Assembly (NCBI RefSeq): GCF_020382885.2
Contig: NC_058501.1
Location: forward strand, 15,762,501-15,826,500
Length of the DNA stretch: 64,000 nt
Source: Scatophagus argus
Lineage: Eukaryota; Chordata; Actinopteri; Scatophagidae
Direction: 5' to 3'
The notes under the pieces are model-generated. The model was given only the letters and a program-made list of their open reading frames with translations, was not told where the DNA came from and did not search any database. Made by a program: the position numbers and the translations under genes. Positions within the stretch are counted from its first letter, which is position 1, and every line of letters starts with the position of its first letter. Shown piece by piece: positions 1,511 through 54,200 of the stretch.

Positions 1511-2205
1511 TTATGAATGCTGCAGGGTCAAAAGTAAATCGTTCAACCGTTTCCTCCTCTGTTCTCTGCTGCAGATCTCCTCTTCCCCTCGTTTCTCTTC
1601 CTCTCCCTCCTCCTCTTGTCTGTTCTGGGTTTTGTTGGGCTGTGGTGAACACGTATGCACAATTAATTGCAAAAGAAGATTTTTATCTGAGCACAAATTT
1701 GCACTCTTGAAAGAAAAGATCTTTTGTTTTTTTGTGTGTTTTCTTATTTATGTGGGTGCTTTTGTTCACTCACACAGGGGCTGGCAGTGAGTAAGCTGGA
1801 AGTGTCCCGATTCTGATGGTGGGGGTCACTGCTGATAACCGTCACCTCCGACCCCACTGTCTGATCTAAAGGTCAGAGGTCAAACAGTTTTCTGTATGTT
1901 AGCGCAGAATGAAAGCAGCACGTCATTTCTCTTACAGATATATCTGTAATTATGCAAGTGTCCTTATTTCCCCCTTGATTCCTATCTGCCATCAGTCAGG
2001 GAGTTTTTTTGATGGAAACTGTGTGGTTTCACTGCTAATGGGGAAAGTCGATGCCTGCTGGGTTCTTGGACACCAAGAATGGATGACAGAAATGGGGAAA
2101 CATTTCTGCAGGCTGAAATTCTGCGGTTGGAAAACCACTTAGTTTGTGCTGCTGACTATGATATGGAGAGACAAGCTGAATATGAGGACAACGTGCCGTA
2201 AGCAG

Positions 2206-2241
<36 letters not shown>

Positions 2242-5200
2242 CACACGTAAGGTAAAAGACACAACAAAGGACCAAAGGACGGCAGAAGAAATCTAAAATC
2301 AATGTACAGTAAAAATGAAAATGTATAGAGTTCAACCACATACACGTATGCATACACAAACACCTACAGAAACAAAAACTAACACACACACTTGCTTCAT
2401 GGACCTGACTTGATGTGGCTCTCATCCCCACTGGCTCCATCACAGGACAGACGTCGTGAGTCTCCCTCTTCCCCCTCTGCATCTCTCTCTCTCTCTATCC
2501 TCAGTCGTATCTGTCTGTCTCGCACAAGCTCCCAGTTCCTCACAAGGAACACGTGGTGTTTAACCACAAAGCTCCTGGACCAGGGGCACAGAGGGGGAGG
2601 AACATAAACTTTCCACGCTGACATGAGTTCAGTAGCAGTGTATCAAGTAGTTTATCTTGAAATGATCATTGCTGTGTTCTTTCCATACCTCTCACTGCTG
2701 GTCAAAGGCTCCATGTCGAGGTGAGGAAACAGGCTGGTAATGTCACTGGAGCTCTCCTCCTGAAAAACGGAAATAAAAAGTAGGGATATATGCACGTTTT
2801 AACAGTTATCAAAGCTGCATTATTCACCAGAATGAATCAACCTCAAACCACATGGACTCACCGCTGTCTGGTGAGAGGATACAGCCCTCTCCTTCATCCG
2901 GCCTGAGTCAAAAGAGAGAGAGCGAAACAGCGAATGAGGGTATTGATTTGATCCATCAGCTAAACCTCAAGATAGCACATCCAATTCTGGCAACTCACAG
3001 TAACGCCGCTTCCTCTTCAGGGGGACAGACGGCTGCCTTTGAAGCTGTAGCAACACGACACAAGAATTACATGCACATTCAAGACTCTCCAAAAACCTCC
3101 TCTTTTATCTTCAGCTTGGCCTTCTAACTTCCTCATTCTGTGTTAGGGGGCTCCACTGTACCTGATTGTGCTGCCACAGCCACATAACATCATATGGTAA
3201 TTGGAAATGAATTCGCTTCAGCCTAAGGTACTTTCCTGGAGGACACAAAGGGAGTTTGGATGAACTTCCACTGCTACAACAAACTACAGCAGCATTTGCA
3301 TTTTCTTATATACTCACCAACATGTATGGGAGCAGGCAAAAGGCTGTAATCTTGCTCCCCAGGTGTGTATTCCATACTTTCTCTGCACAGCTTCTGGACT
3401 TGGGAGGGGGGACTAGGAAAGAAGCAAAATAACAAGATAAACAAAAATACTGATGACATAAGCAATGTTACAGCAGTTTGTTTATGAACTCAACTCACTC
3501 TGTAGTTTTATAATCATCAGAGTAAAGACCTGCCCTCAGAAACTTCTTCCTAGGAGGGCCATCTGCTCTCTCCTCTCTTTGGATGGTTACTGGTTGGGAC
3601 GGAGCCTGGTCAACATCTGACTGGCTAAAACATTCAGCGGCGGTGTCACCCTCAGGTTTATCCTCAGCGACACTAAAAGGAAAGCATGAAGAGAGAGATA
3701 GAATGATAGAGAGGAAAAAGAGAAAGAGAGAAAAGGCACTGGTTTAGCACACAGTGCTGAAAACGATGGGTTAATATAGCAGTAGTGAGTGGTTGTATTG
3801 AATTTTCAAGTCAACCAGCTCAGTTTTTTTAATGTTATGAGTGTTTACCTCTGATGACAAGGAGAGTCACCATGTTTTCTCTTTCGTCCCCTCTTCCTCC
3901 TGGCCTGCAGCTCAAGCTCTGTCACCTGCTGTACTATGTCACCTCCTCGATCTCTCTCTGGCACCCTTTCATCTTTTCTCCCTCCCGCTTCTCTCCCATC
4001 TCTGTTGTGGCTGTGTCCTGGCAAGATGTCAGGTGATGACATGGAGGGAGCTGCAGATGAGTGCGTGGGGGAGGACACAGTGGAGGGCAGCGGGTGCTTT
4101 CTGGGACGCCCTGGCCTTCTTTTGTTTTTCCCAGCCACACTGACTGGGGTTGGAACGCTTTTCTGCTGCCCCGAGCTTCTCGAGTCACCTTGTAAACCTG
4201 CAGTCATTGAAACAAAAAAGGGGGGGGGGGGGGTATATGTGGCAGAGAGGAAATGAGACAGATGTGGATCAGTGATTGAGCCAGCAGGAGGTGTGAGGTG
4301 AGGCCAGTCTAGGCTGAGTCATGCTGAACCACAGATTAGGTGAGTCACAACATTTCCTCTGACCAGATCACTTCTGGGAAACGCATTAAGAAATGATTTA
4401 TGTACACACACTCACACAGCTAAAAATCACAAGAATGGACACAAACACTGTGCAGAATGCATGCTTTTTAATGTGAGCATGCACACGTATACATTCTTGT
4501 ACTGTAATCCTAATGTGGAACACAATCTCAAAAGGCTGAGCAGACAAAGACAGAGAGAAAAAAGTGTGTGTGTGAGTGTGTGAGAGCTAGCGTGCTGTAC
4601 CTCAAAACACATGTGTGTTTAGTTAGATGATGAACTGATGTCAAATGTATTCCACCTCTTTTAAAAACATCTCTCCCCTCACAAGCTCTCTCTGCCCTCC
4701 ATTCTGACCTCTGTGCTATTCCTTCATCAATCACCCCTGAGGTCGTCTATCTTTTTGTTCCATTTTCCACAGTCCCCAGCAAGACTGGCCACTCTTTCCT
4801 TACTGGATTTTTCCAAGTCAAATAGGCCCTTCTGGCCAGCAGTGAGGGATAGGCCGGGCTTTAAATAGCCAATCTGGTGGTTAACTAATGACTGTGTTCA
4901 CTGGGTAGCCCTGGTCTGTAACAGTGTGCGGTTCGCTTCAGACCGGGCAGATTTCAAAGATTTTCTGGAAGATTTCCATCAAGATGCTGCACTCATGGTA
5001 TAACACTTTTTAAAAAATTTCCAACAGAGAGTGGTTGCTGAGTGGTTGCATTTGTGTGTATGTGTGTGTGTGTGTTTGGCATGTCCCCTGCACAGCAGAG
5101 GGAGTCTGAAATTGGCTATAAAAAGAACAGAGTCTGATTTCCTCTCAAACACCCTCCAGGCTTTGATATGTGGCTCAACAACACCTGAGAAAAAGCAATG

Positions 5201-8200
5201 CTGTCACTATATTGGGAGATCTATTGGTGCCACGTTCTCATCTCCACATTGTGCAAATTTAAAAATCTGTCATACTGTGCAAGTAAAAAGAACCCCTTGG
5301 CATAAACTCACTTAGCTATCTGTCATGATTTGGGTGGTATTGATGTATTTCTGTGGTAAGCACAGTAATGTTAGATGTCCCACGTTATCTAAATTACTTT
5401 CCATATTCTATCTATTCATATTTTCAGCCAGTGAAATAATCACACATATAATACAACTATGCATTCGCAAAACCGAAGAAGAAAAAGCAATCATGACAAT
5501 GGAGATATTTGTGGCATTTAGCAGCCGCCTGAGAAACACTAACATCGTGTTAGCACCAACTTTGGCACTAATGCTAACATAACCTCACACTGAGGCATTA
5601 AACAGAAGGATGCGCATCTCGGTGCTCTATTAAATAACACAATTATAGATCAATTCATGCATTCTCACCTGTTTCTCTCCTCTCTGTCCACGCTGGCTCA
5701 TCTCTCCTCCTTGATCTGTCTCCACTTTCCAGACTCCTACCAGCAAAACGGCTCCTCAGACCCCTCTCCCCTTTTGCCATTGCAGCAGAGGTGAACAGGT
5801 TGGTGTGTGTTGGGGAAGGGGATGTCCGGTGCAGATGTGACTCTTGTACATCCTCATCGTCTTCATCCTCTCCATCTGATGCTATCAGTTGGCTTGCAGG
5901 TTGATCCCCGGTGAAGCCTCTCCAGCTGAGGTTTGAGTTTCCAAATCCTGCTCCTCCTAGGCTCCCGAATTTTGTCCAGTTCTGGCCCAGGCCGCCCCAG
6001 CCTCCTCCAAATGATGACAGGTGAGACGAACCCAGCCCCAGTGAGGTGAGAGAGGTGTGTTTGTACCTCTCTGCTGAAGATGAGGATGATGTGGCAGCTG
6101 CAGCTGAGCAGAAGGTATCATTTCCGCTCTCACATAACCAGGGCGATTCTTTAGACAGCATACTCCCCACTCCTCTTGCCTCTTTCCTTCCTCCGTCTCC
6201 TTGACCTAAAATGAACCCTGACCTTGGTTTTGAACTGGCTAATCTCTCTCTCTCTATTCCATCTTCCTCCTCATCGTCATGTAACTCCTCCTCGTCATCC
6301 ATATCTCGCTCGCAGTGCCTGTGACGATGTTTATGCTTGTGTTTGTGTTCGTTCCTCCCACAGCCACAAGGAAGGCTGGATGTGAACCCTGAGCTGAGGT
6401 GTGGGCCTCCTCCACTGCCTCCTCCTAAATCGCCCTCAACCTCTCCTCCTAAAGCTCCTTCCCTCAGCAACCTGCTCCTCCGCCTGTGGAATCTGGCAGG
6501 GTTGAGGAGGAAGTGGGTGTGATGGGGCTGATGGGGGGCATATTGGTGTGGAGAGGGAATCGGGTAAGAGTTGGGGACATGGTGGTAAAGTGCTGTGGCT
6601 GTTGGATAGCTACTATAAAAGCCCATATTTTCAATGGTCTCCTGGAACTTTGACGGGCAACCACATTGCCTGCGATCTGGCTTTCTGTTACAATGCACTG
6701 TCTGGCAGGGGTAGAAAGGCTGGGGGGAGAAGGCGGTATTTGCAGAGTAAGGTGAAGGATGGGGTGAGTAGAAGCCATTCAGATTGATCCTAAAGATGTT
6801 GGAGCGAAGAGAATGGGATGAGGAGTGATGGCGTCTTCCTCCAGCAGCATTCCCGCTCCCATCAAAGCCCTGTCCCAGCCCTGTCCTCGCCCAACCTCGT
6901 CGTCCAATATGAACCTCACTAAACTGACCGATCAGATCCTCTAGTTCAGCCAGAAACTCTGGGTCCTGCATATGTAGCTGCTGGTGCTTCTTCTTATGTT
7001 TATTTTTCTGTCTCTTCAGTGCATTGTGCCCAAGGCACGGGTAATAATCTGAATGAGTGCACTTGTTGTGACCTGGGCAAGAGCAAGGGCACAAGCAAGT
7101 ACACGAGGAGGAACAGTCATAATCCCTCCGCCTGTGCCTGTGTCTGTCCCTGTGCCGCTCCAGATTTGTTGCGTTGGTGATGGGGTTTGTGTGTCTGGGC
7201 ATATGAGAGAGGGGTGAAGAGACAGGAGAAGGACGATCCGCAAGGGAGGAGGGTTGCCGTTGAGCCCCGAGAATCACTCCTGCACCCTGACCCAACCTGA
7301 GTATGCCTCGGGCTCCCCTAATCTCCCCTCGCTCAGAAACACTGTTGTTATCCGTTCCAATCCCGCTGTCACTAGGCAGTGTCTCTTCACTGTGAGATTC
7401 ACTCCTGGGGGAGGGAGTGGCCTCTTTCAGGTGGCCAGGGGAGCCAGGTGTGTGATGTAGTGGAGGGGTGGGACTGGAGAGCTTACATGATGACTGGTGA
7501 AAGGGGAAATGATGCCTCCCCTGACATGGACAACTCTTCTTCACAAAGGGAGAGAGGGATGAGGAGGAGGGAGGACGGGGGGAGGTACAGGAGGATGAAG
7601 GGGAAGGGAGGGAGAAGTGGTGAGGAAAAAGTAGGGAGGATGTTGGTTCTGTGAGGCTGCCTTCACTATAAGGGCTCTGGGCCCCACTGGAGTGGGTAAG
7701 AGACGGGGAAGGAAATGGATGAGAGGAAGGAGGCTGGGGTTGGTTAGAGAAGAGAGATGTTTCAGAGGGACTGGTAAACAGAGATGACTGAGTGGAGTTC
7801 TGGGAGTTGGTTTGGGTTGTCGGAGCTGTTTGGGTTTTGGGTTTGCGTCCTCGCCTCTTGCCCATGTAGATGGTCCCTCTCTTGCTCACATTGATCTGAG
7901 GGCCCAGCTTACTCCCAAAGGAGGAGGACAGGGCTGTGAGTGTGTGTACTGCTGTAGCCTCTATCGATTTACACATTTTTAGAGAAGTCTCACCATCTGC
8001 CACCCTGCCTCCCCTTACCTCTTTTCCTGCATACCCAGACAACATTACCTTGTGAAGTCTCCTCTTCTTTCTTTTCTTCATCTCATTAATCAGTCTCCTG
8101 ATCTTTAGCTGCCTGTCCCCTCTTTCAGGAGGATGAAAATCTTTACTCCTGTCTGTATCATCAGTGCGATTCAGTGCATCTCCACTCTGGTCCTGGGGGA

Positions 8201-10212
8201 GGGGTCTTTTGGGAGGACGGCCACGCTTCTTGGGGCTGGATTTAGACTGAGTAGCACACTGCAGTATTGGACTTGGCTCCAGCGCAGGGGCTTTCTGAAT
8301 GCCGTCACACCCCAAAGGAGGCACCTCAGCCTGGATAGCATTTGGTGAAAGTTTAGGGGGAGGTTCGTCTAAGCTGGAGCTGTGCGATTTTGGGCGGCCT
8401 CTTTTTCGTGCAGGGGTTATGGGGCATTTGGAAGCAGAGGGGCTAGCATCTGACGTGGGGTGACTCTGCTTTGGGGATGGAGGTTTGGTAGTAGATGGGA
8501 GAGGGGAAAAGGTGCTGGTTAAGGAACTGGAGGGAGCAGGGTTTGACTCATCAGTCTGCTGAATAGTGGCTTTTACAGAAAGGGACATCTTGGTATTCTG
8601 TGGAAAAAGATTATGTTGGGAATCTGAAGGAGCTTCCTGATTTTCTGCCCTCTGAGCCCGGTGCACCAGCTTGGTCCAGCTGGGCCGTCTGGCTTTACGT
8701 TTCTTGAGCGGTCGGCTGTCCTGCTCTTGGGGAGAACATGAGGGAGAAATGGGTGCCCGGGCAGAAGGAGTGGGCAGAGAGGGAGGAGCAGAAAAAGAGG
8801 GGTGGCTTGGAGGCACAGCTGAATGTCTTGAAATGTCTTGTTCTTTTGATTTACTGGTGTCACCTGTTGCTGGCTCAGCTTGTTTAACTTGCTTGCAACT
8901 GTCATCTGTCTTGTCTATCTCACCAGGGCTGCCTGTATTTACTACTTTATAAGTTTTATCCAGTTTACCACTGTCAACTGTTTCACCACAGTTTGTATTA
9001 TTATCTTCTGTTCTTTGACTGTCTGGGCTTTGTTTATCCCTCTTTTTCTCAACCTTTCCTCTTTCAATCCTTAGTTCATCTCTCCATGTTTCATCAGTCT
9101 TATGTGTTTCCTCTCTTTCTTTAGCATGCCTTGATTTTCCATCCTTCCCTTTCTCTTTCTTCTTCTTCTTGCCTTCCTCTTTTCTGCTCTCACTCTTTGT
9201 TTTTTCAGGGTCCAACCTATCTCTTTTTGACTTTTTGACTTTCTTTTTGTCTTGTTTTTCTTTTTTTGCTTTCCTTTCTTTCTCTCTGTTCTTCTCTAGT
9301 GAGGGCTGTAGACAAGGATCCTGATCTTGGGATTGGGCTGAGGACACATCCACAGTGGGGGTGGACTGTGGTTTAGGGGTGACTGAGAGAGAGGAAGGAG
9401 AGTCTGGCCTACTCTTACTAGACAGGCTAAGTTCTTTAGGGGAGCTAGTGGAAACTGGAGGTCTTGTCGAGGAATCAACGGAAGACACAGAGGAGGAACT
9501 GCTGTGTTTTCTAATTTTGATTTTCGATGAGGTGGAAGTGCCAAGGATGTCGGTAGAGCCTTTCCCATTTGACAGTCCCTTCTGTTTTGTTGTCTGCACC
9601 AAACCATTATGTTTCTTGGAGGTCTTTCCTTCACTCCTGTTTTCTGATGCAGGTGGGGCTGGGATGCATTGGGAGGAAGGAGGAATTGAAGCTGTCTGTT
9701 CTCTTGTGGGTGAACAAGGTTTGTGCCCTGCAGGGACAGGCTGGCCATTGACACTTGGGAGCTTCTCTTTCTTCACTTTCTCAGATGAGCCATTTGAATT
9801 CAACTCTGTCTTATCAGCCAGCTTGATAGGAACCTGGGGAATGCAAACACAGAATCTCTGTCATAGACAACAATGGCTGTGACATCCACTAGTTTGCCAC
9901 TGACAGCAGTGAAGGACAATGGGGAAGAGACAATAACTAAAATGCTTTTGTTTTTGTCTGCCTATTAAAAGAGAGAGTGGGGACAAAATGACTCAATCAG
10001 GCAGAGAAAAGAGGGCATACTGAGGAGAAAGGAGAAAGTGAGGTGATGGAAACAGGAATGGGGTTGACACAGAAAGGAGAAATACAAAAGCAGAGAAACC
10101 GAGAGGAAGGGAGTGGGACAGGGACAGAAGGGGAGTGAAAGATAAATGAGAGCAGGTAGAGAAAAAAGGGGATGTAAAAATAGAAGAGAGAGACAGATAT
10201 AGAGAGGCAGGC

Positions 10213-10247
<35 letters not shown>

Positions 10248-11446
10248 GCTGTGCTACTGGCAGCTATAAATTGCCACTAATACAGATGAGAAGGCTTGAC
10301 ATTTCATACTTGTCCTGTAATTTTGGTATGCTGCAGCTTGAGTGGCGTTTGCGCAGCTAAAGCAATAAGCTTCCCCTTGGGCGATTGTCATAGGGACCCA
10401 TGGACCAATGTCTGTAATAGCTCCAAGTGGTTGCCGTGCTGTTGTCCTATTTATAGGTCTGTTTATTTAAGTGGGCTGCTTAGGTTACAGTATCGGGACA
10501 ATAGCTTATTTGACCTTATTACAACCGAACACAAAGCTAGGTGATTTTGCACCATACAAGTCTGTCTGGTGGTTTACTGTAAGAACCAAAACAACTACAG
10601 GACACAGAGTATGTGCCATTAATAATGTACGCATACCATCAGTCACTGCAACACTTGTTTTTTTTTTTTGTTTGTTCTTTTTAACTCACATTAATAGCAG
10701 GTTTAATAACAGCTGAAATGAACAAATCTGTATGAGACAAATAGAACATGTCCTTAACTTACCTGTTTGGCAGACTTGGTCCCTTGGCTGGTTATGGCAG
10801 GGACTGAGGCTGGACTGGAAGCTGTTGTAAATGTTGATGATAACGACGGTTGCTGTGATGATGAAGATGATGATGACGATGGTAATGATGATGATACGAG
10901 TGGTGGTGAAGCAGCAGATGCAGTTTGTTTGGATGTGGTCTGGACAGCATCCAAGCCTGAGCGTTGATCTCTGGTTGGCTCATCTGGGGTAGAGCTGGTT
11001 TTGCTTTGCTGTCCCACTCCCCCTTCTCCATCACCCCTCAGCAGTCCCCCCCTGCCTTGCCTCTGATAGGTCCGAATGGTGGGTTTGCAGACGTAGCTCT
11101 CTAAGATCTTGGGTGGTTTCTTGGTGCGTTTGGCCTGTAGTCCAATCCGAACTCGTACATTCCCTTCAGGGCAGCTTGTCTCTCTGCCAGAGATCTGAAG
11201 CGGTTGCTGCCCAGCACTTCCACAGCGCCCCTCAATGAGCAACTCCAGCACTGCCCCCTTGTCTCCTTCTCTCTTTCTCCCCGATCCCCTTTTCTCCTCC
11301 TCCTTTTCCCCTACGTCTCCATTCTCCCCCTCACCTCTCCTCTTTTTCTCTGCCACTTGGTCCTGTTCAGAGTCTTCGGGCGCAGAGGTGGGATCCACAG
11401 TAGAGTTTGTGGTAGGAGGGGTCCCCCCCTTCACTCTCTGGTCCAT
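1511..11446 (-). CDS. ash1l: ASH1L-like chromatin protein lacking SET, bromodomain, PHD and BAH
   Basis: ASH1L is normally a nuclear H3K36 methyltransferase. Coding exons in order: 11446-10763, 9833-5669, 4197-3849, 3672-3499, 3412-3318, 3235-3162, 3044-2999, 2902-2862, 2759-2689, 2574-2405, 1865-1774, 1639-1511. All have GT-AG borders and compatible phases, giving about 2,029 aa against about 2,969 in human. The start MDQR resembles human MDPR. Landmarks shared with human are [12 protein letters not shown] in exon 1; AT-hooks [15 protein letters not shown] and [10 protein letters not shown] in the giant exon; [19 protein letters not shown] (exon 3); [31 protein letters not shown]; and FQLPYD. 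The next human segment, AWS-SET-postSET, is absent: exon 3044-2999 leads within about 250 bp to the post-SET linker with [13 protein letters not shown]. Bromodomain, PHD and BAH are also absent. The last two exons are the least certain. A recent paralogue or an assembly deletion are the alternatives. Confidence 0.85.
2207..2239. repeat. CA microsatellite
   Basis: This (CA)n run lies in the intron between the ash1l exons 2574-2405 and 1865-1774. It creates spurious Cys/Val open frames on the minus strand. Confidence 0.9.
2405..2574 (-). CDS. ash1l: Exon of ash1l: conserved post-SET segment
   Basis: The minus-strand exon has acceptor CAG at its right border and a GT donor at 2404-2403. It encodes [19 protein letters not shown] and ends HIKS before a split codon, closely matching the human ASH1L stretch that follows the SET domain and ends NIKSD. 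Splicing to 1865-1774 regenerates the D codon. From memory, the MRG15-docking motif of ASH1L lies C-terminal to SET, so this segment may retain cofactor binding; that link is inference. The donor (gtccat) is not a strong consensus. Confidence 0.8.
4198..5668 (-). other. ash1l intron after the giant exon
   Basis: This 1.47-kb intron separates the giant exon from the RRPGRPRK exon. It contains a G homopolymer just above 4218 and a short TG run near 5055-5075. It was read for displaced SET-domain motifs (NHSCDPNC-like) and none were seen. Confidence 0.75.
9834..10762 (-). other. ash1l intron between first coding exon and giant exon
   Basis: The intron is bounded by donor GTAAGT (at 10762) and acceptor CCCCAG (at 9834), phase 0. 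It contains purine-rich sequence and a GA dinucleotide run at about 10219-10247. No gene is seen in it. Confidence 0.8.
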
Positions 11447-20600: not shown

Positions 20601-22296
20601 AAGAGTACACTGGGTTCTCACTGCAGTCCTGTGACGATTTTATAAAAAATGATGCAGCAGAATTAGATTTTTTTTTCTTCTTCTTCTTTGTCAAAACCTG
20701 GCACTTATATTACCCGCAGTGCAACTCCTCCACAGATGGTTTGGTTGGAGATTTGTGTGAGTTATGCTAGTTGCATCTAATGTAGCCTTGAGCTGCTAAC
20801 CTCAAGCAGAGACGAGGGGCAGGCTGCAATGGTCTGGTATTCCACACCCCCAGATTTTTTTCACTTTCAAACTTATAGTCGTTAGCACCAACTTTAGGCA
20901 ATTTAACAGACTTCACACAGCTCCCTTTGGAGAGACAAAAGACTACACGACTGCTTTAGCCTTCCTTTCATAAGAGATTGTAATCAGACTTGTGATGATG
21001 TTTTCTTTGCTGCAGGGCATCAGTCGTGTGAAGAGCAGCAGTGATGTGGTGGGGGCGTTGATGAAGGAGCTGCGTCTGCACAGTGGGCAGCCAGAGTCAA
21101 ACTTCCGCGTGGCCGTGGCTGTGGATGGCGTCAATGCACTGTGGGGAAGATCTACTATCAAGAAGGAGGATAAGAGTGCTGTGAGGAAACACATATACAA
21201 TCTGCCATGCCTCATGCTTGTCTCCATGCCTTTTCCACAGATAGAAATTCTAGTGTGTCTAACTGCCTTTGCTGTCCTTCAGGTGGATCCCGGGGAGCTC
21301 ACTTTGGTCCATAACCTGAGGAAGATGATGAAGAACGACTGGGTGAGCAGAACACACTCAAAGCAATGGCCACAGTTGCATGAGAATATTATATATCAGC
21401 ATTTTTCCATTGACCTACACTCTCTTTGTCCCAGACTGGCGGTGCTGTCATCACCACTCTTTCTCAGACGGGATCTCTCTACACCCCACAGTCTGCCTAC
21501 TTGCCCAAAGAGCTGCTGGGAGAGGTCAGAGGACATTTTTTATTGTATTTTATAATCAGCAGCACTTGTCCTCCAGTTCTGACAGCAGATAAATGTTTCT
21601 CTTTTTTAACCTGGTCTGGAGACTGCATCACTCCAAATATGAGGACTCATGGGCAGAAGATGTTTTCCATAATGAAATAAAGTGATTGATTTAAAAAAAA
21701 AAAAAAAGAAAGAAAAAGACTCTATGGTTATGCTTTGTTGTTGCTTTCTGATGAGCATTTACATTTTTTGTTGTCTGCCCACAACAAAACAGCCAGTATA
21801 TCAAGTATAATTGTGTTAGTTTGTCACCTTGTGCATACATGATATGATATGTATGTCTGTATTTTTATTGCACCTAAATTTTATTAATCTTGCATCTTGA
21901 TGTGCTATATCAAGCATCTTGATATACTGTGTAAAGGGACATATTTGATGTCCAATATGTTGACTTCCTGTCTGTGTCTCGCTCATCAGAGGGGCTTTGA
22001 CAGCATGGAGCCATTCATCCCAGTGTCAGTGCCCAACTACAGCGAGAAGGAGTTTGAGAGCTGTTACCTGTACTATACGGACCGTCACTGGCTGCAGCAT
22101 CCACAGAGTAAGTGGTGATACTGTGGATGCTTTGCTTTATAAAAAATACATTTTAGTGATTCTGTTTTGGTAGCCTTAAATTCTCTTTGTCATTTTTTCC
22201 CCCTCATCAGCTCAAACAGAGGAAGGAAAGAAAGAACTCATCTTTTTGAGCAACAGAAATCCGTCGATGTTGGACAGAATTTGTGCCTTCCTATGA
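17696..22296 (+). CDS. dap3: Death-associated protein 3, mitochondrial small-ribosomal GTPase mS29
   Basis: DAP3 is a GTP-binding protein of the mitochondrial 28S ribosomal subunit, also linked to apoptosis. Coding exons: 17696-17734, 18255-18368, 18533-18634, 18730-18838, 18930-19022, 19140-19270, 19914-19994, 21016-21180, 21283-21342, 21435-21524, 21990-22107, 22211-22296, giving about 395 aa (human 398). The N-terminus is basic and hydroxylated, typical of a mitochondrial presequence. The P-loop GLKGSGKT lies near residues 123-130. Family signatures include [43 protein letters not shown] and the C-terminal EEGKKEL. The ATG at 17696 was chosen because it follows the exon-2 acceptor directly and gives the conserved presequence start. 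No disruption was seen. Confidence 0.97.
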
Positions 22297-35177: not shown

Positions 35178-38100
35178 AGATAGACAGACAAAGGGAGAGA
35201 GGGAGAGGGGGGGTGAGGCGTGAGAGAAGGAGCACACAAGCAGAAATGCATAGCAGCAGTAATAATACCAGAAGTATTGGAACTGTAGATAATGATAATG
35301 ACAATGAAGTATACAGAAGGTATTACGGTGATTATGATAGCAATATTAGTAACAATAATAATGGTAGCAGCTGCAGCAGAGTAGTAATAGATTTAAGGTA
35401 GATTATGACTAAACAGTAGTAATCGCATTAAGTTTCGAGCAGGACCGCAGCAGGAGGTCCAACCACGATCCATGGGAACCTGCGAGACAAGAAAGCACAA
35501 GGACTCCAAGGAAGAAGTTGAGTTAGTGATATGCATTAATGGGACATAAATGTGTGCAGAAGGAGAGGGAGAGGAAGAAAGAGCTCAGTGCGTCATGGGA
35601 GGACCCCTGGCAGTCAAAGCGTATAGCAGCATAACTAGGGGGCCGGCCTGGGCCGGCCCTAACTATAAGCTTGATCAAAAAGGAAGCTCTGGTGGGATAA
35701 TAGGGAACTATCAACTCTTTAAGATATGATGGTGCCTGACCGTTCAGGGCTTTATATGTGAGGAGAAGAATTTTAAATGCTATCCTGAATTTTACAGGTA
35801 GCCAATGTAGAGAAGCCAGTACAGGAGAAAAATGATCTCTCATGCTGGTTCTTGTGAGTAATCTTGCAGCAGCATTCTGGATTATCTGGAGAGTCTTTAT
35901 AGATTTATTGGGGCAGCCTGATAGAAGGGAGTTACAATAATCCAGCCTAGAGGTAATGAATGCATGAACTAATTTTTCTGCATCTTTCTGACTCAGAATG
36001 TGCCTAATTTTTGCAATATTGCAGAGGTGAAAGAATGCAGTCTTTGAAATATTCGATATGTGTGAGTTAAAGGACATATCCTGGTCAAAGGTAACTCTTA
36101 AATTCCTCACAGTGTAGCTTGAGGCAACGGCTAAGCCATCTAGCATTGCTATATCACTGGATAATTTGTTTCTAAGGTGTTCAGGGCCCAGAACAATAAC
36201 TTCAGTTTTGTCTGAATTTAGAAGTAAAAAACTGCAAGTCATCCAGGTTTTCATGTCATGCCTGAAGTTTAGTTCAGTTAGTTCAGTTTAGCTGATTTGT
36301 TTCTTCTGGTTTCATTAACAAGTACAACTGTGTGTCATCTGCATAACAATGAAAATGTATGGGGTGTTTTCTGATAACATCACCGACAATGGGGAGCATG
36401 TAAAGGGTGAATAATATTGGCCTGAGGACAAAACCTTAGGGAACTCCATGACTAACTTTTGTGAGTGTGGACTATGTATCATTAACATGAACAAATTGAG
36501 ATCGATCTGATAAATAAGACTGAAACCAGCTTAATGCAGTTCCTTTAATGCCAATTAGGTATTCCAATCTGTGCAATAAGATGGACTGGTCAGTGGTGTC
36601 AAATGCAGCACTAAGGTCCAACAGTATAAGGACAGAGATAAATCCCTTGTCTGATGCCAGTAGGAGGTCATTTGTGACTTTGACCAATGCCATTTCTGTG
36701 CTATGATGAGCTCTAAAGCCAGATTAAAAATTTTCAAATAAGTTATTATTATGAAGAAAGTCACATAGCTGATTGGCGACTGTTTTTTCCAAGGCTCTTG
36801 GAAAGAAATGGAAGGTTGGATATCGGTCTATAGCTGCTTAAAACCTCTGGGTCAAGTGTGTGTTTTTTAAGGAGAGGTTTGGCTACAGCTACTTTAAAGG
36901 ACTGGGGTACATAGCCTGTTATTAGGGACAGATTGATCATGTCTAATAGACAGGTGCTAAGTAAGGGTAAAACTTCTTTGAGTAGCTTAGTAGAGATGGG
37001 GTCTAAGAGGCATATTGTTGGCTTGGATGGATATATAAGTGAACATAACTGATGAGGGTCAATAGGCTAGGAGAAAAGCAGTCAAGATGACTATCTGGTT
37101 CTACTGTTGTTTCTAAGGTTCCAGTGTTTGTATGTCAATCGGTACCAGTAGGTGTTGAATTTTGTCTCTAATGTTGCTGCAGTCTGTTGGCTCAGTGAAG
37201 ACATGCCACAGGACTGAGAGGGCCTGAGACAAGCAGGCCAGTTTAGAGTCAGTGACATGGCAAGCTGGAATGACCCTCAACCATACAATAAAAATACAGA
37301 TTCAGCTGACAAGATAATCTGGTGGACTGACTTACTGACGCAATGACTGCTGGCCAATAACATGCAATATACACTCAGTTGACGGTTTAAAAGGTATGAA
37401 CTCATTTATATCAACCAAGCTGGATTTAATATGAAATATCTCGGTATTAGAGCAGCAACTATTTTAATTATTTTCAATGATTAAGCTGCCAATAATTTGA
37501 TTATTTAATGAAGATTAAAATTCCCATCACAGTTTCCTAAAACATAAGATAACATCTTAAAATTGTTTCTTCTGTCCAACCAGCAGACTAAAACCAAAAC
37601 ATTAAGTTTATTATCAAAAACGCTATAAAAAAACAGCAACTCTTCATCCCTGACATTGACTGACATTGTCGTTTGATAATGATTACCCAGTTAATAGGTT
37701 ATCCAACATGTTGTCAATTCTCTTTTCACCAAGTGATAGACTAATCAACTAATCGTCTAAGCTCTTTTTGTTTTAATACAATATAAGTGAACAGGAATGC
37801 AAACTAGGGTTTTCAAAATGATCAGTAACTGAAATTAACACATTTCTACAACTGTTTAAACAAACCCATTATAACCTTCATGACCTCAGGATATACTACA
37901 GTGCTGATGTATTAGACTACTGTTAGCCAGGTGTACCTAATAAACTGGCAACTGGGTGTAAATAGGAAACCCTCTCAACTACTTAGGGTGTGAAAAGTGC
38001 ATGTTTAATTCATCCTGGGTTTAGTAAGTCTGACAAGATGTGGGTCAAGCCAGCGTTTAGCTCTAAAACTGAAACTAAAACGAACCTTGAGCTTAAATGT

Positions 38101-40511: not shown

Positions 40512-43500
40512 ATGACTGCCCAGGAGGTGCGTCTGTGTGGTCTCCTGCTGCGGGAGCACTTTGGAGAAGTGGTGGAGAAAGTGGGAACACACCTGCTCAG
40601 AAGTGGAGCACAGAATTTAAGAACCCTCATTCATGAGACTGGCATCTCATTGGACCTGGTACCACTCCTACACTTACTGTCACCAGGCTCCTACTGTCTC
40701 TACTTCACACCATAAAAATATCATTACACATTATATCTTTAGCAGTATATACCCTACGTCTCAACATTTTTGAGCAGAGTTAACAGTCCAGCCTTTGTGA
40801 TTACATTGGTGGACATTCAAGCCATTGTAGGCATAATGTTCAGTGTGTTTACATACAATAATTATTCCACACTTGCAGCAAATTATGCAGTAGTTTTTGC
40901 ATCATCAGTTTAAAGGCAGAACTCAGTGTCTGTTCAAGAAGCCTGATTACATGGCCACATATAGCCTTAGCTGTGATTTTGAAATAATAATAAAAAAAAT
41001 ACCAGTTTTTATATGTTTTCTTCTTACTTGTTTCCCCTCCCCTTTTTTGTCTGCGTTGTAGGTTAAGAAGTCCCTGTGTGTGCTTGTGCAGCACGGGGCT
41101 TGTGTGTTCACCTCAGGCCGTAGAGGACCTGGGAGCCCCACAGAATATCGGGCCAGCTGTGATTGGATTCTGAGAATTCTGCGATACCCACGCTACATCT
41201 ACACAGCCAAAACCCTGTACGGTGACACCGGAGAGCTAATCATAGAGGAGTTACTGCAGAGAGGTGAAATGACCATGAGCAGTACGGTTAAGACAGTCGC
41301 TGACCGGCTCACACAGAACATGGAGGGTCAGTATATCTGTCTGTCTCAGTCACCCACGTTCATACACTGATGGCAGAGGCTGCCAGATACCTGCTTGCTC
41401 ATCAGGTGTGATTCAGTGCTTCCTATCCAAAACGCTCAATGATTTTTCTTTGCCATTCACCCACTCACACAGTGATGGAACAGCCATTTTGGGGCAAATT
41501 TGGGGTTCAGTATCGTACCCAAGGACGCTTGGAGATGTATCCGGAGCTGGGGATCAAACCATCGACTTTCCATATAAAGCTTTAATGTTGCCTGCAGATT
41601 TGTGAAGAAGTGCTTTGATTTGGGTTTACCCTCTCACTCCTCTCTTGGCTCAGAATCCATATTTGGTCAAAAGCCTGCCGTGGAAAGCAGGCAGGACCAC
41701 CTAACACCTGTCAGTCACGCAAAGATGCTCCGAAATACAAACTACTGCAGCAGTTTTCTCTCGTCTTTCCTGTTGCTCTAGATGGCTGCAGCATGGATTA
41801 CAGTGAAGTGTCTTCTGCCTTCGCCAAACTGGTGGAGACCCATTTTCTTCAGCGCTGCCCTCCAATGACAGGAGCAGGAACAGCAGACAGTGGCACTCCA
41901 GCTGCCCCTGCTACCCCTGCTATCCCCGCTACCCCCAGTACTCCTGCTAGCACTGCCTTGCCCACACCAGAGAGCTTCCCGGACTGTTACAGGGTTCCTC
42001 ATGTGACACTCATAGGGAAAGGCAAGCGGCGACTGTCCAGTGAGGATGGAGAGGACCAAAGGAATGCAAAGAAAGCAAAAACAGAATCAGAGGTGGGCGT
42101 TTGGTTAGTTACACTTTAAACACATTTGGAGAACTTTTAAAACTTCAGTTATCTAATTTCCCTGTCCTTTAAGTACATTGTGTTTCTTATCTTTTTGGTG
42201 ACCTCTCCATTTGCATGTTTCTTACGCTCAGACACACGGGGATGAAGGGATTTACTGGCAGGTGAATTTTGAGAGGTTCCATCTCCACTTCAGAGACCAG
42301 GCCATCATCAGTGCTGTAGCCAATAAGCTGGACCAGGTCAGGTTTACACATGGATGCTTCAATTACATTGTTTAAAAAATAGTCACTTACACTTACTGAC
42401 TTTCTTCCTTCAGTTATATAAGAATATTGTCATGTTATATGTAGCAGTCAGCAACTGGTTAGCTTAGCTTAGCATAAAGACTGGAAACAGGGGGAAACAT
42501 TTGCTGTACAGGTGGTATCAATTCTTGTCCCTTGCCTAGCAAGATAGCACCAGTTATTATTATGGTTATTTCTGATTTTAACTATTGTCTTTCTGAATAA
42601 TTTTGTCTTAATATCTCAGACTAGCAGTGAGATTGTGAGGACGATGCTGAGGATGAGTGAGGTTACGACCTCTCCCACAGCCACCTGCACAAAGCCCCTC
42701 TCAGCCAATGAGATCTTCAGGTCCCTCCCAAGTAGTTACAACATTGCAAGACCCATCTTAGACCAGTACCTCACGCTACTGGTTGATGACCCGGTATGAG
42801 CAGCTTGAGCCACTGGTTACCTTTTTCTAATCTTTTCTTCTCACAAGATTTTTCTTTAAAGGTGCTTGTCTTTCTTTTCCTAGATGGAGTTTGTGGGCAA
42901 GGCTGGTGAAAGTGGAGGAGGGATGTACGTTGTCAGTATCCTTTTTTTTTTTCTTTAAGAGGGTCCTTGTAGAGGAACCGAACCAGCACGCTGTTTTTGT
43001 GCAATTTAATTTAATGAAACACCAAGCATGGATGCTTTTCTTAATTCACCTCTCAGATCTACACAGAGCACTGGCAAATCTGGCTCGTGCCACACTTGAG
43101 TCTGTAGTACAGGAAAGGTAAGTGAGGGAGTTTTGAAATTGTGCAAACATGCAATTGTCTGATTTAATTAGTTTTAATCTGTCATCAGATTTGGATCCCG
43201 ATCAGCACGCATCTTTCGTCTGCTGCTAAGGAAACGTCACCTGGAGCAGAAGCAGGTGGAGGATTTTGCCATGATTCCAGCCAAAGAGGCAAAAGACATG
43301 CTCTACACACTGCTTTCACAGAATCTGGTCCAGCTACAGGTACATGCATCACATGTGAAGATGGTCTCACAAATCTTCTCTTAGCATCTGTGTGTTCTTA
43401 CTAAACTATTACCCAACTCTGTATTTTTAAGAAGAACTTTAGAAGTCGTCTTCCCTTCTAGCTGCTGCCAGACATGATTTGTAACTTTGACAAAAATAAG

Positions 43501-51200: not shown

Positions 51201-54200
51201 AAATCAAATAATTGATAGAGATTATGTGTTCTCTAAGAGATAAATCACATAATATGACAAACTAAAGCTTTTAAAATTTTAAAATGAACCCGCTTGACAA
51301 TCTGACAATCAGGCATCCTTGGTGTCAATCATTCCAGACTGCTGCTTCATCTCTCTTTATGTAAACAGTGAATTTTTCATTAATCAACAAACCCTCCAAA
51401 GTGAAGATGCGATCTCCCAGGGCATCCACGATGTCATTGAGTGCAGCTTCATCGGTCACATTGAAGAAGTATTTGTCGTCAGGGTCGCTGGCAATATATT
51501 TGATCTCATTAATGAATGTCTCAGGGTCCTGCTGTCGGCGGATGTAATGACCAAGAACCTGGAGGCCAGCGTGACAGAGAGAGATGGAGGGGAAAAACAT
51601 GAAAAGTATGGAAAATGAATAACCAGATAACACTAGCCCACTAAAACATTGTTGGATTAAGCTGGATGCAGGAAAAGGAGGTGAAGGCAAGAAAAACAGA
51701 GTATAAACAGACTTTTTGGCATGAATCAGAGGAATTACTTCTCCATGTTTCTGAGGGACGGTGAAGATAGAAAGAGAGATGAAACAAAGTTCTCGGTGCA
51801 TCTTCCAGCACTTTGCAGCTGAATCAGGTGCTGCTCAGTTTAAGGATGGACACGTCCAAGGGAAAAGGGACCAGAGACAAACATTTCAGCACTGTCTATC
51901 ACTGTGTTAATCAAATTTGACCAGTAAGAACTAAGTAGTCCTTTAAACTGAGAAAATTGTCCTACTTCTTAAGCTAAATAAACTAATTTAAACTCTTTCT
52001 GGATTAGTTAAAAAATGCACTGTCACAAAGCTAAAAACGGGGCTGTTCTCACTGACTGGAACTGCAGGACTGAACTGTGAATAAAATGAACATGAGCACA
52101 GTTCACAGCCCATGTGATTTACTAGCAATTAAGCAATACCAAAAGACAACACACTGACTGGAAGACATAAGAACAGAGGAAATGGTAGCCGCCAGAGATT
52201 TGTAAATGAGGTGCACAGGTCTAGCTGTGAGGTGAAGAGATGACTGATGAGGAAGATGTACCATAGCAGAAGTGGCCTATGGCCAAATGCCTGAAGTACA
52301 AATGAGAAAATTCCATAAGAGAAACCAAACCCAAGAATCTCCCCTTGTGACTCCAGCTGCCAAGAAAACTAAGGAAATCCTCTTCTTTCAAAGGGTAGGG
52401 GATGTAGAGTGTAACATGAAGAGAGACTACATATAAATATGTACACTGAGATCTTATAAATGCTGAGAAATTCCACTCAACCTGCCGAGTACATAGTCAT
52501 GAACAGAGAAGAAGACAGAAAAAAAAAAGTCCTGTTAAAATATAAATTTCAAGATTTAAAGCATTTGGAAACACAATAGTGTTTGAATAAATGGATTAAG
52601 CGTACACACACATGCTTGCAAACAACTGCTTGCCGACCAACAAACACACTTCCAATCCCTGACCCTCCCTGATGTTTAAAACACACTCTGCGACCGAGCT
52701 CTTGTTTTGAAAGCCCTGCTGTCCCCTGTGAGCCATTTTGCAGCAGCAAAGAGAACGACATCAAAACATGGCTGCTGTTACAAGCAGCACTTACCTGTCA
52801 TCACTCTGACATTTTAGGCAAACACTCAACCACGCAGCCCACCCCAGGCTCGCTTGTTTTCTTTATCCTGTTTGGTGTTTTGTCTAATTTTCTCTGCTTT
52901 CCCTGAACGTATTCAGCTGTGACAGCCAGATCACTCCAATACAATGAAGAATTTCATATGTGGTGCCAAAACTCTCATGAATAGGGTTTTTTTTTTATTA
53001 TCTGTGAAATTCAGCCAACAAAACCATAATTTAAAGCTATTTTTAGCACAGCACAAGCCAACTAAACTTTGTAATAATTCAAACATCATGATTATGCAAA
53101 CAGGCGATCTGAATTTCTCCGTCCATAGATTAGTAGGTATATCTGAGTTCCACCACATACACATTTTTCTATAGTGGCACTTTGCCATTTCTCCTTCACG
53201 TTGGCTCGTGTTCTCCTCTTCTGTGGTTCTGGTGGAGTCTGGAGGTTCCCCAGCCTCTCTTGTGGCAAAGGGAGGGGTCTGCAACCATTCCTGCCTCTAG
53301 AGTCTGTCTGCCCCACTGACACTAAAACCTTGGCACCATTCAGCGTGTGTCTGTGTGTTAAGGGGGTCGGGCGGAGCTGGACAGGAAGACTTTTTGTTGT
53401 CACACGGCTATTTTAGTAGACCCAAGGGGTTCATTTGGTAATTTGGAGATGTTATTTTTGGGGGCGTGCAGCTGGTATTATGTGGTTGCTTGAGGGTAAA
53501 GATGGTCACCAGACCACTTTCACACAATGTGTGAGGAAAGTCAGGGATGCCCACCCCACTGATAATGGAGGTTAGTTTGTGTTTGTTTCCCACAGTTGTT
53601 TCATTCTTGCCATGGTAGAAAAATTTCCCAAATCAACATCTTGTGCATCATAAGGCACTAAAACTCTTGATGAGATGTACTCACAGCAATGGCATATCTG
53701 GTGATGTTTCTGTCCTTACACTCCTGCAGAGCATCTGATAACTCCTCCCCATCATGTGACTCTCCGTCCGTCACCACGATCATCACCTTGGTGGCGCCCT
53801 CCCTGGCTCCACGTTCAACGCTGAACGCCTCCGTGCTACAAATAAAGGAAGGTCAGAATGAGGTAAAGAACTTCATGATAGTTTGTCAAAACAACCAACT
53901 GAATGATCTTGAATCAAGACAGAAAGCGCAAGAAAGAAGGAGAGTGAAATAGAAGGAAAGTACAAGGAGCGAAAGAGCCTGAGGGAGAGGGACGATACCA
54001 GGGTGTATCACTCACTACCACTCGTTTCCTAAAATCTCAAATAAACATCCCCTATAAGATAATATACAATTTCAAGTGCTTCTCTGAGAAAATGAACACC
54101 CAGCAAAACACTGAGACACTGGATTTAAGTTTCTTCCCATCAAGTCAGATATAAACGTCCACATCACAACTGGACCTTTCCACAACTATATTAGTCAGAC

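Follow-up and report, generated by a model that had tools for sequence, protein, structure and literature searches.

The ash1l-like gene in the 64,000-nucleotide stretch of Scatophagus argus DNA analysed here (the window) encodes an intact ASH1L-derived protein without the enzyme and without the reader cluster. The two most constrained C-terminal segments of this protein appear to correspond to the mapped docking sites of the Ash1-MRG15-Caf1 (AMC) complex, that is, the FxLP motif and the Caf1-binding motif (CBM, for Caf1/RBBP4-7). Judged from these sequence comparisons, a non-catalytic ash1l paralogue has probably been kept as an enzyme-free scaffold able to hold MRG15 and Caf1.

The gene lies on the minus strand of the window and runs from 11446 to 1511 in 12 coding exons. 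The assembled frame is complete, codes for 2029 amino acids, and contains a single terminal stop (1513-1511) and none internal. Its parts are as follows.

10763..11446, minus strand: coding exon 1, 684 bp, aa 1-228; start codon, N-terminal ASH1L block and a second block; aligned to SET-bearing ash1l
5669..9833, minus strand: coding exon 2, the giant exon, 4165 bp; disordered ASH1L N-terminal half with KRGRP/GRKPK AT-hook-like motifs and a Cys-rich insertion
3849..4197, minus strand: coding exon 3, 349 bp; carries a short motif; from the gene model
3499..3672, minus strand: coding exon 4, 174 bp; from the gene model and alignment
3318..3412, minus strand: coding exon 5, 95 bp; from the gene model and alignment
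3162..3235, minus strand: coding exon 6, 74 bp; predicted MRG15-docking FxLP motif, matching PDB 6ine and 6ago
2999..3044, minus strand: coding exon 7, 46 bp; first junction, with about 225 residues of AWS-SET-postSET missing
2862..2902, minus strand: coding exon 8, 41 bp; post-SET linker remnant, aligned near RLKEKRKSKH
2689..2759, minus strand: coding exon 9, 71 bp; from the gene model and alignment
2405..2574, minus strand: coding exon 10, 170 bp; predicted CBM; ends in HIKS, the second junction
1866..2404, minus strand: intron, 539 bp; about 500 residues including bromodomain-PHD-BAH missing here
1774..1865, minus strand: coding exon 11, 92 bp; variable acidic/serine-rich tail
1511..1639, minus strand: coding exon 12, 129 bp with the stop; C-terminal tail

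All 11 introns are bounded by GT-AG, and the exon phases are compatible throughout. Across exons 3-12 (412 complete codons) the frame was open in none of 20000 base shuffles, and chance is thus ruled out as the source of this open frame. The N-terminus, giant exon, FxLP exon and tail of the window protein all match in alignment with ASH1L, and the deposited Scatophagus argus protein P0020 shows 100% identity, with 80% of the query region covered. There is also an alternative acceptor at 3756 (minus strand, TTTCAG/CACTGTGTGCTAA) which, joined from the exon 3 end at 3849, yields S-T-V-C-stop. The same ending is seen in isoform X2 as deposited for Scatophagus (P0020, 1736 aa), which lacks both FxLP and CBM.

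An earlier, sequence-only reading of this DNA had placed the segments that flank the missing catalytic block in the minus-strand exons 3235-3162, 3044-2999, 2902-2862, 2759-2689 and 2574-2405, closely spaced and with joining phases. The gene model agrees on each count: the segments lie in these exons, the four introns separating them measure 117, 96, 102 and 114 bases and are bounded by GT-AG, and the reading phase carries across each. The positions were therefore right, but the kept C-terminal tail and the full span 11446-1511 had been overlooked, and the surviving segments were correctly listed without being recognised as MRG15 and Caf1 docking motifs. The disappearance of AWS-SET-postSET is confirmed, as profiles match neither the assembled protein nor any of the six frames of the 64 kb; as a description of domain loss it was incomplete, since bromodomain-PHD-BAH has gone as well.

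Alignment to the SET-bearing turbot protein P0162 (2968 aa) locates both losses. At the first junction PLKRKRRYC (turbot PLYKKIRSN, 2025-2033) runs into RMKERAVS (turbot RLKEKRKS, from 2259), an AWS-SET-postSET deficit of about 225 residues. At the second, HIKS (turbot NIKS, ending 2351) runs into RRKRLND (turbot RDRLNK, about 2910), with a bromodomain-PHD-BAH deficit of about 500 residues; here, at the 539-base intron 2404-1866, the HIKS-D join gives the residue matching canonical NIKS-D.

Profiles for AWS, SET, postSET, bromodomain, PHD and BAH were made in this study from SET-bearing ash1l proteins. Among the matches listed they recognised 42 of 42 SET-bearing proteins (BAH 41 of 42), which served as the positive control, and none of 126 SET-less proteins, window included, of which 47 are fragments or truncated models stopping short of the FxLP exon, leaving 79, window included, as the informative number. 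The same six profiles matched no six-frame piece of the 64-kb window, introns included, and Pfam, with E up to 1 allowed, assigned no family to any of three relatives. The idea of leftover SET or reader exons, whether inside introns or at other places in the window, was rejected, as six frames of the 64 kb hold none. Of the features of the ASH1L methyltransferase (KMT2H), the window protein thus has neither AWS-SET-postSET nor bromodomain-PHD-BAH; by descent it belongs to the ASH1L family, with which it has N-terminal and central blocks in common and in whose ash1l tree it has a place.

The same contracted structure recurs in at least 78 clusters of database proteins, which range from those of pike and salmonids up to those of percomorphs. 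Among the matches listed, the SET-less relatives are about 1,700-2,050 aa long and derive from percomorphs, squirrelfish, opah, burbot, Aplochiton, pike, mudminnow and char; no name from zebrafish, eels or arowana occurs among them. Many are labelled “histone-lysine N-methyltransferase ASH1L(-like)”, and all lack precomputed Pfam domains. In two protein searches a break in score separates them from the SET-bearing matches ranked below. The distance from FQLP to the CBM likewise divides the matches listed: 76 SET-less rows have 68-110 residues between the two (median 69), 42 SET-bearing rows have 291-309 (median 298), and the ranges do not overlap. Both forms are named in at least five species, Echeneis naucrates, Anabas testudineus, Umbra pygmaea, Lampris incognitus and Scophthalmus maximus, the SET-less entry of the last being a truncated model, and from such species we infer that Scatophagus argus itself carries a SET-bearing copy. 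The notion of a frame-keeping, non-catalytic ASH1L paralogue is hence upheld by the clusters, by the five species with both forms and by the separate SET-less clade described below.

Two proteins from the “lgn” source contain the junctions in one frame: P0016, whose 2026 aa come from a contig of 6680 bases, and P0024, whose 1966 aa come from one of 7725 bases. Given that the window gene extends over about 10 kb and that even its largest exon encodes 1388 aa, we read both as spliced transcripts.

Two motifs carry the argument for a scaffold. First, in fly and human the single FxLP motif to which MRG15 binds lies about 40 residues ahead of AWS; MRG15 activates the enzyme, and substitution of RxRP for FxLP abolishes co-purification of MRG15 (PMC5963871). 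Exon 6 of the window matches the ASH1L chains of PDB 6ine (E 2e-18) and 6ago (E 1e-12), and its FQLPYDV satisfies the MRG-binding signature FxLP(x)2-3-hydrophobic (PMC8701324). FQLP is present in all 79 SET-less rows that reach exon 6, window included, among the matches listed, and V occupies the matching hydrophobic place in 97% of 69 rows that were chosen for carrying FQLP. The window FQLP is thus a predicted MRG15-docking FxLP motif. The residue before it differs between the two forms: among the matches listed, Asp precedes FQLP in 42 of 42 SET-bearing rows versus 10 of 79 SET-less rows (H 57, N 11, P 1).

Secondly, Caf1 binds residues 1582-1616 of fly Ash1, where E1591, V1595, F1601, L1602, R1604, N1605 and K1608 are conserved, and either E1591A or R1604A abolishes the binding (PMC10148413). 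We assigned residues to these positions by spacing. The offsets 0, 4, 10, 11, 13 and 14 land on E, V, F, L, R and N in window exon 10, so that six of the seven residues are kept, and position 17 (K1608) is L, not K. The exon 10 motif is a predicted Caf1/RBBP4-binding motif. It occurs in 76 of the 79 SET-less rows reaching the FxLP exon among the matches listed, with F, L, R and N invariant in the 76; as for the three rows without it, P0076 ends earlier, and P0031 and P0052 are altered models. D replaces E at the E1591 position in five of the 76, from pike, mudminnow and salmonid, and could weaken Caf1 binding there. The K1608 position again separates the forms, with K in 40 of 42 SET-bearing rows versus none of the 76 SET-less rows (L, M, W, A or R) among the matches listed. 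This drift around both motifs, like the D for E, speaks against the scaffold reading.

Mean identity to the commonest residue, taken over 80 unfiltered rows with gaps left out, makes the FxLP block (0.937) and the CBM (0.930) the most conserved stretches of exons 6-12; the comparison values are 0.714 for the exon 8 linker, 0.764 for the rest of exon 10, 0.759 for exon 11 and 0.813 for exon 12. An earlier conservation test had used 68 relatives picked for FQLP and the CBM, which biases those positions, and the 80 unfiltered rows agreed with it. For the six CBM residues that PMC10148413 names, the mean is 0.985, versus 0.802 for aa 1863-2029, a level that none of 100000 random draws attained. 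It is protein conservation of this kind that argues for selection on the SET-less gene.

Several blocks of the giant exon are as conserved as the docking motifs or more so, and exons 1-2 hold most of the strongest blocks, two examples standing at 0.99 and 0.99; the main function may lie in the blocks of the giant exon. In addition, that exon codes for a Cys-rich insertion at aa about 1137-1168 of the window protein. The SET-less rows shown have it, in a shorter version in pike and char, and the six SET-bearing rows shown do not; near it, where the SET copy has the AT-hook KKRGRPPK, the SET-less copy reads RRQCGCPSK. From its composition, the insertion is conceivable as a metal-binding module. 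These conserved blocks, the clade-specific insertion and the altered AT-hook would all suit a protein in which the N-terminal disordered half is the main worker, by binding DNA or co-factors in a new role, and in which MRG15/Caf1 docking is kept as a secondary trait. We regard this as unlikely, however, in that exons 6 and 10 hold the docking motifs near-invariant while the neighbouring linkers drift.

In the AlphaFold model of a goby relative, P0122, 936 of 1061 residues are under pLDDT 50. The modelled helices are a short one (881-888) directly after FQLP, a long one (940-981) over the CBM, and two others. The 2029-aa protein of the window is almost wholly disordered by prediction, and the pattern in P0122 is as would be expected of a scaffold with linear motifs.

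As regards descent, a tree of 751 well-aligned columns and 43 rows united 19 SET-less rows in one clade (SH-aLRT 100) and 20 teleost SET-bearing rows, otocephalan and euteleostean, in another (support 97), with bichir and tetrapods outside. The rows were chosen by us, 18 of 125 SET-less and 24 of 42 SET-bearing proteins being taken, and a Synaphobranchus row (297 columns) was dropped. In both tree sets the SET-less clade received SH-aLRT 100 and the teleost SET clade 97-98. The tree puts the split of the two forms before the parting of Otocephala and Euteleostei, with weaker support on 751 columns and a long stem branch (0.64-1.0) to the SET-less clade. Judged from the tree, the window gene is most likely the second ash1l copy from the teleost genome duplication, but the long stem calls for caution over this placement. 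Branch lengths point to rapid change of the SET-less copy within its stem, and its later evolution, over 15 pairs, is 1.4-6.5 times faster than that of the SET copy, a point against the scaffold reading. The relatives fit a domain loss before pike/salmon and neoteleosts parted.

A rival date, for which the long stem speaks, is a younger duplication inside Euteleostei, with long-branch pull having set the SET-less clade too deep. Every SET-less protein with a readable name among the matches listed belongs to Euteleostei, and the AU test on 751 columns does not reject this history (p 0.088). With 1392 columns and 22 rows it is nonetheless rejected (p 0.0037), as is a grouping of the SET-less clade with otocephalan SET copies (p 0.0035), and we find the younger date improbable.

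That the gene is a decaying pseudogene whose frame is still open seems very improbable, even though the SET-less copy evolves faster than the SET copy and has lost all folded domains. Structure and open frame are shared by the clusters from pike and salmonids to percomorphs, FQLP is retained in every informative row, and full-length frames occur on contigs so short that the sequence must be spliced. Because protein prediction favors open frames, the case here rests on conserved length and motifs and not on absent stops. A recent pseudogene was likewise rejected on protein conservation across relatives and on the unbroken frame in the window. A collapse, gap or deletion in the assembly that took SET and reader exons out of a normal ash1l, which the earlier reading had named as its refuting case, can be dismissed with near certainty: independent assemblies of many species have the same junction, P0016 and P0024 carry it in frame, and SET-bearing ash1l forms a separate clade.

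If the gene encodes an enzyme-free scaffold, as we favor, the SET-less protein would bind chromatin via its AT-hook-like motifs, and would bind MRG15 and RBBP4/7 side by side, at sites 69 instead of about 298 residues apart. The resulting assembly would be AMC-like and enzyme-free, with no H3K36 methylation. By competing for Caf1 and for MRG15, which activates ASH1L, it would tune ASH1L; since MRG15 raises the activity of human ASH1L about sevenfold (PMC5963871), a competitor for MRG15 would damp it, a decoy role that we consider less likely than not. Alternatively, the protein would serve as an adaptor, delivering MRG15/RBBP4 assemblies to target sites of its own and adding no H3K36me2 there. 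More tentatively, and with some doubt, we suggest a natural dominant-negative or enzyme-free trithorax complex kept since before pike, salmon and percomorphs parted, in which a DNA-binding scaffold would withdraw MRG15 and RBBP4/7 from ASH1L and so limit H3K36me2 at ASH1L targets such as HOX genes.

The window protein resembles ASH1L/Ash1 (KMT2H, the H3K36 methyltransferase of AMC) in its N-terminal blocks, most AT-hook-like motifs, FxLP, CBM and C-terminal tail, and in its place beside teleost ash1l in the tree. It differs in having no AWS, SET, postSET, bromodomain, PHD or BAH, in not keeping the K1608 position, in the shortened distance between docking motifs (69, not about 298 residues) and in the extra Cys-rich segment. 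Catalytically dead fly Ash1 (the R1464A transgene; PMC5963871) is comparable in that Ash1 is present without normal enzyme activity, but it is a laboratory point mutant with all domains present, whereas the fish gene is a natural domain loss. Among pseudoenzyme and decoy paralogues generally, the TASOR pseudo-PARP scaffold (PMC7532188) is also an enzyme relative retained for assembly and not for catalysis; there the dead fold is kept, whereas the fish ASH1L copy has lost the fold and retains short docking motifs. We regard the gene as a pseudoenzyme-like paralogue from which even the enzyme fold has disappeared, with the docking motifs left in place.

In the literature as covered by titles, the starts of abstracts and passages, a scope outside which most subscription papers fall, we found no description of a SET-less ash1l. 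In the parts used, a zebrafish SET survey gives one ash1l, the SET-bearing gene on chromosome 19 (PMC2200798), and a tilapia bromodomain survey also gives one (PMC9454494); domain surveys cannot see a SET-less copy. The label under which many of these proteins are deposited misleads, and surveys of fish methyltransferases and of disease-model genes would be skewed by it. If our reading is true, the gene is a natural separation-of-function experiment in which catalysis and histone reading were removed and partner docking was kept. Fish with both genes would give direct access to a methylation-independent role of ASH1L, a possibility that the authors of the fly R1464A study left open as an HMTase-independent function of Ash1 (PMC5963871), and a way to ask whether MRG15 and Caf1 limit H3K36me2.

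In pike P0121 and mudminnow P0125 the C-terminal tail is longer, with SGG...MRRRGDILV resembling the canonical last stretch EEGSGRRLRRRTLG; this part is lost from the window protein. Elsewhere in the window, the neighbours of the gene are DAP3, POLR3C and an integrin alpha with I-domain.

20974-21555, plus strand: DAP3/mS29 exons, by PDB sequence match
41619-42119, plus strand: exons of RNA polymerase III subunit RPC3, by PDB sequence match
51325-51834, minus strand: exons of an integrin alpha with I-domain, by PDB sequence match

DAP3 presumably adjoins ASH1L in human too. A 254-aa open frame at 35523-36287 on the minus strand resembles what we take to be a LINE reverse transcriptase fragment.
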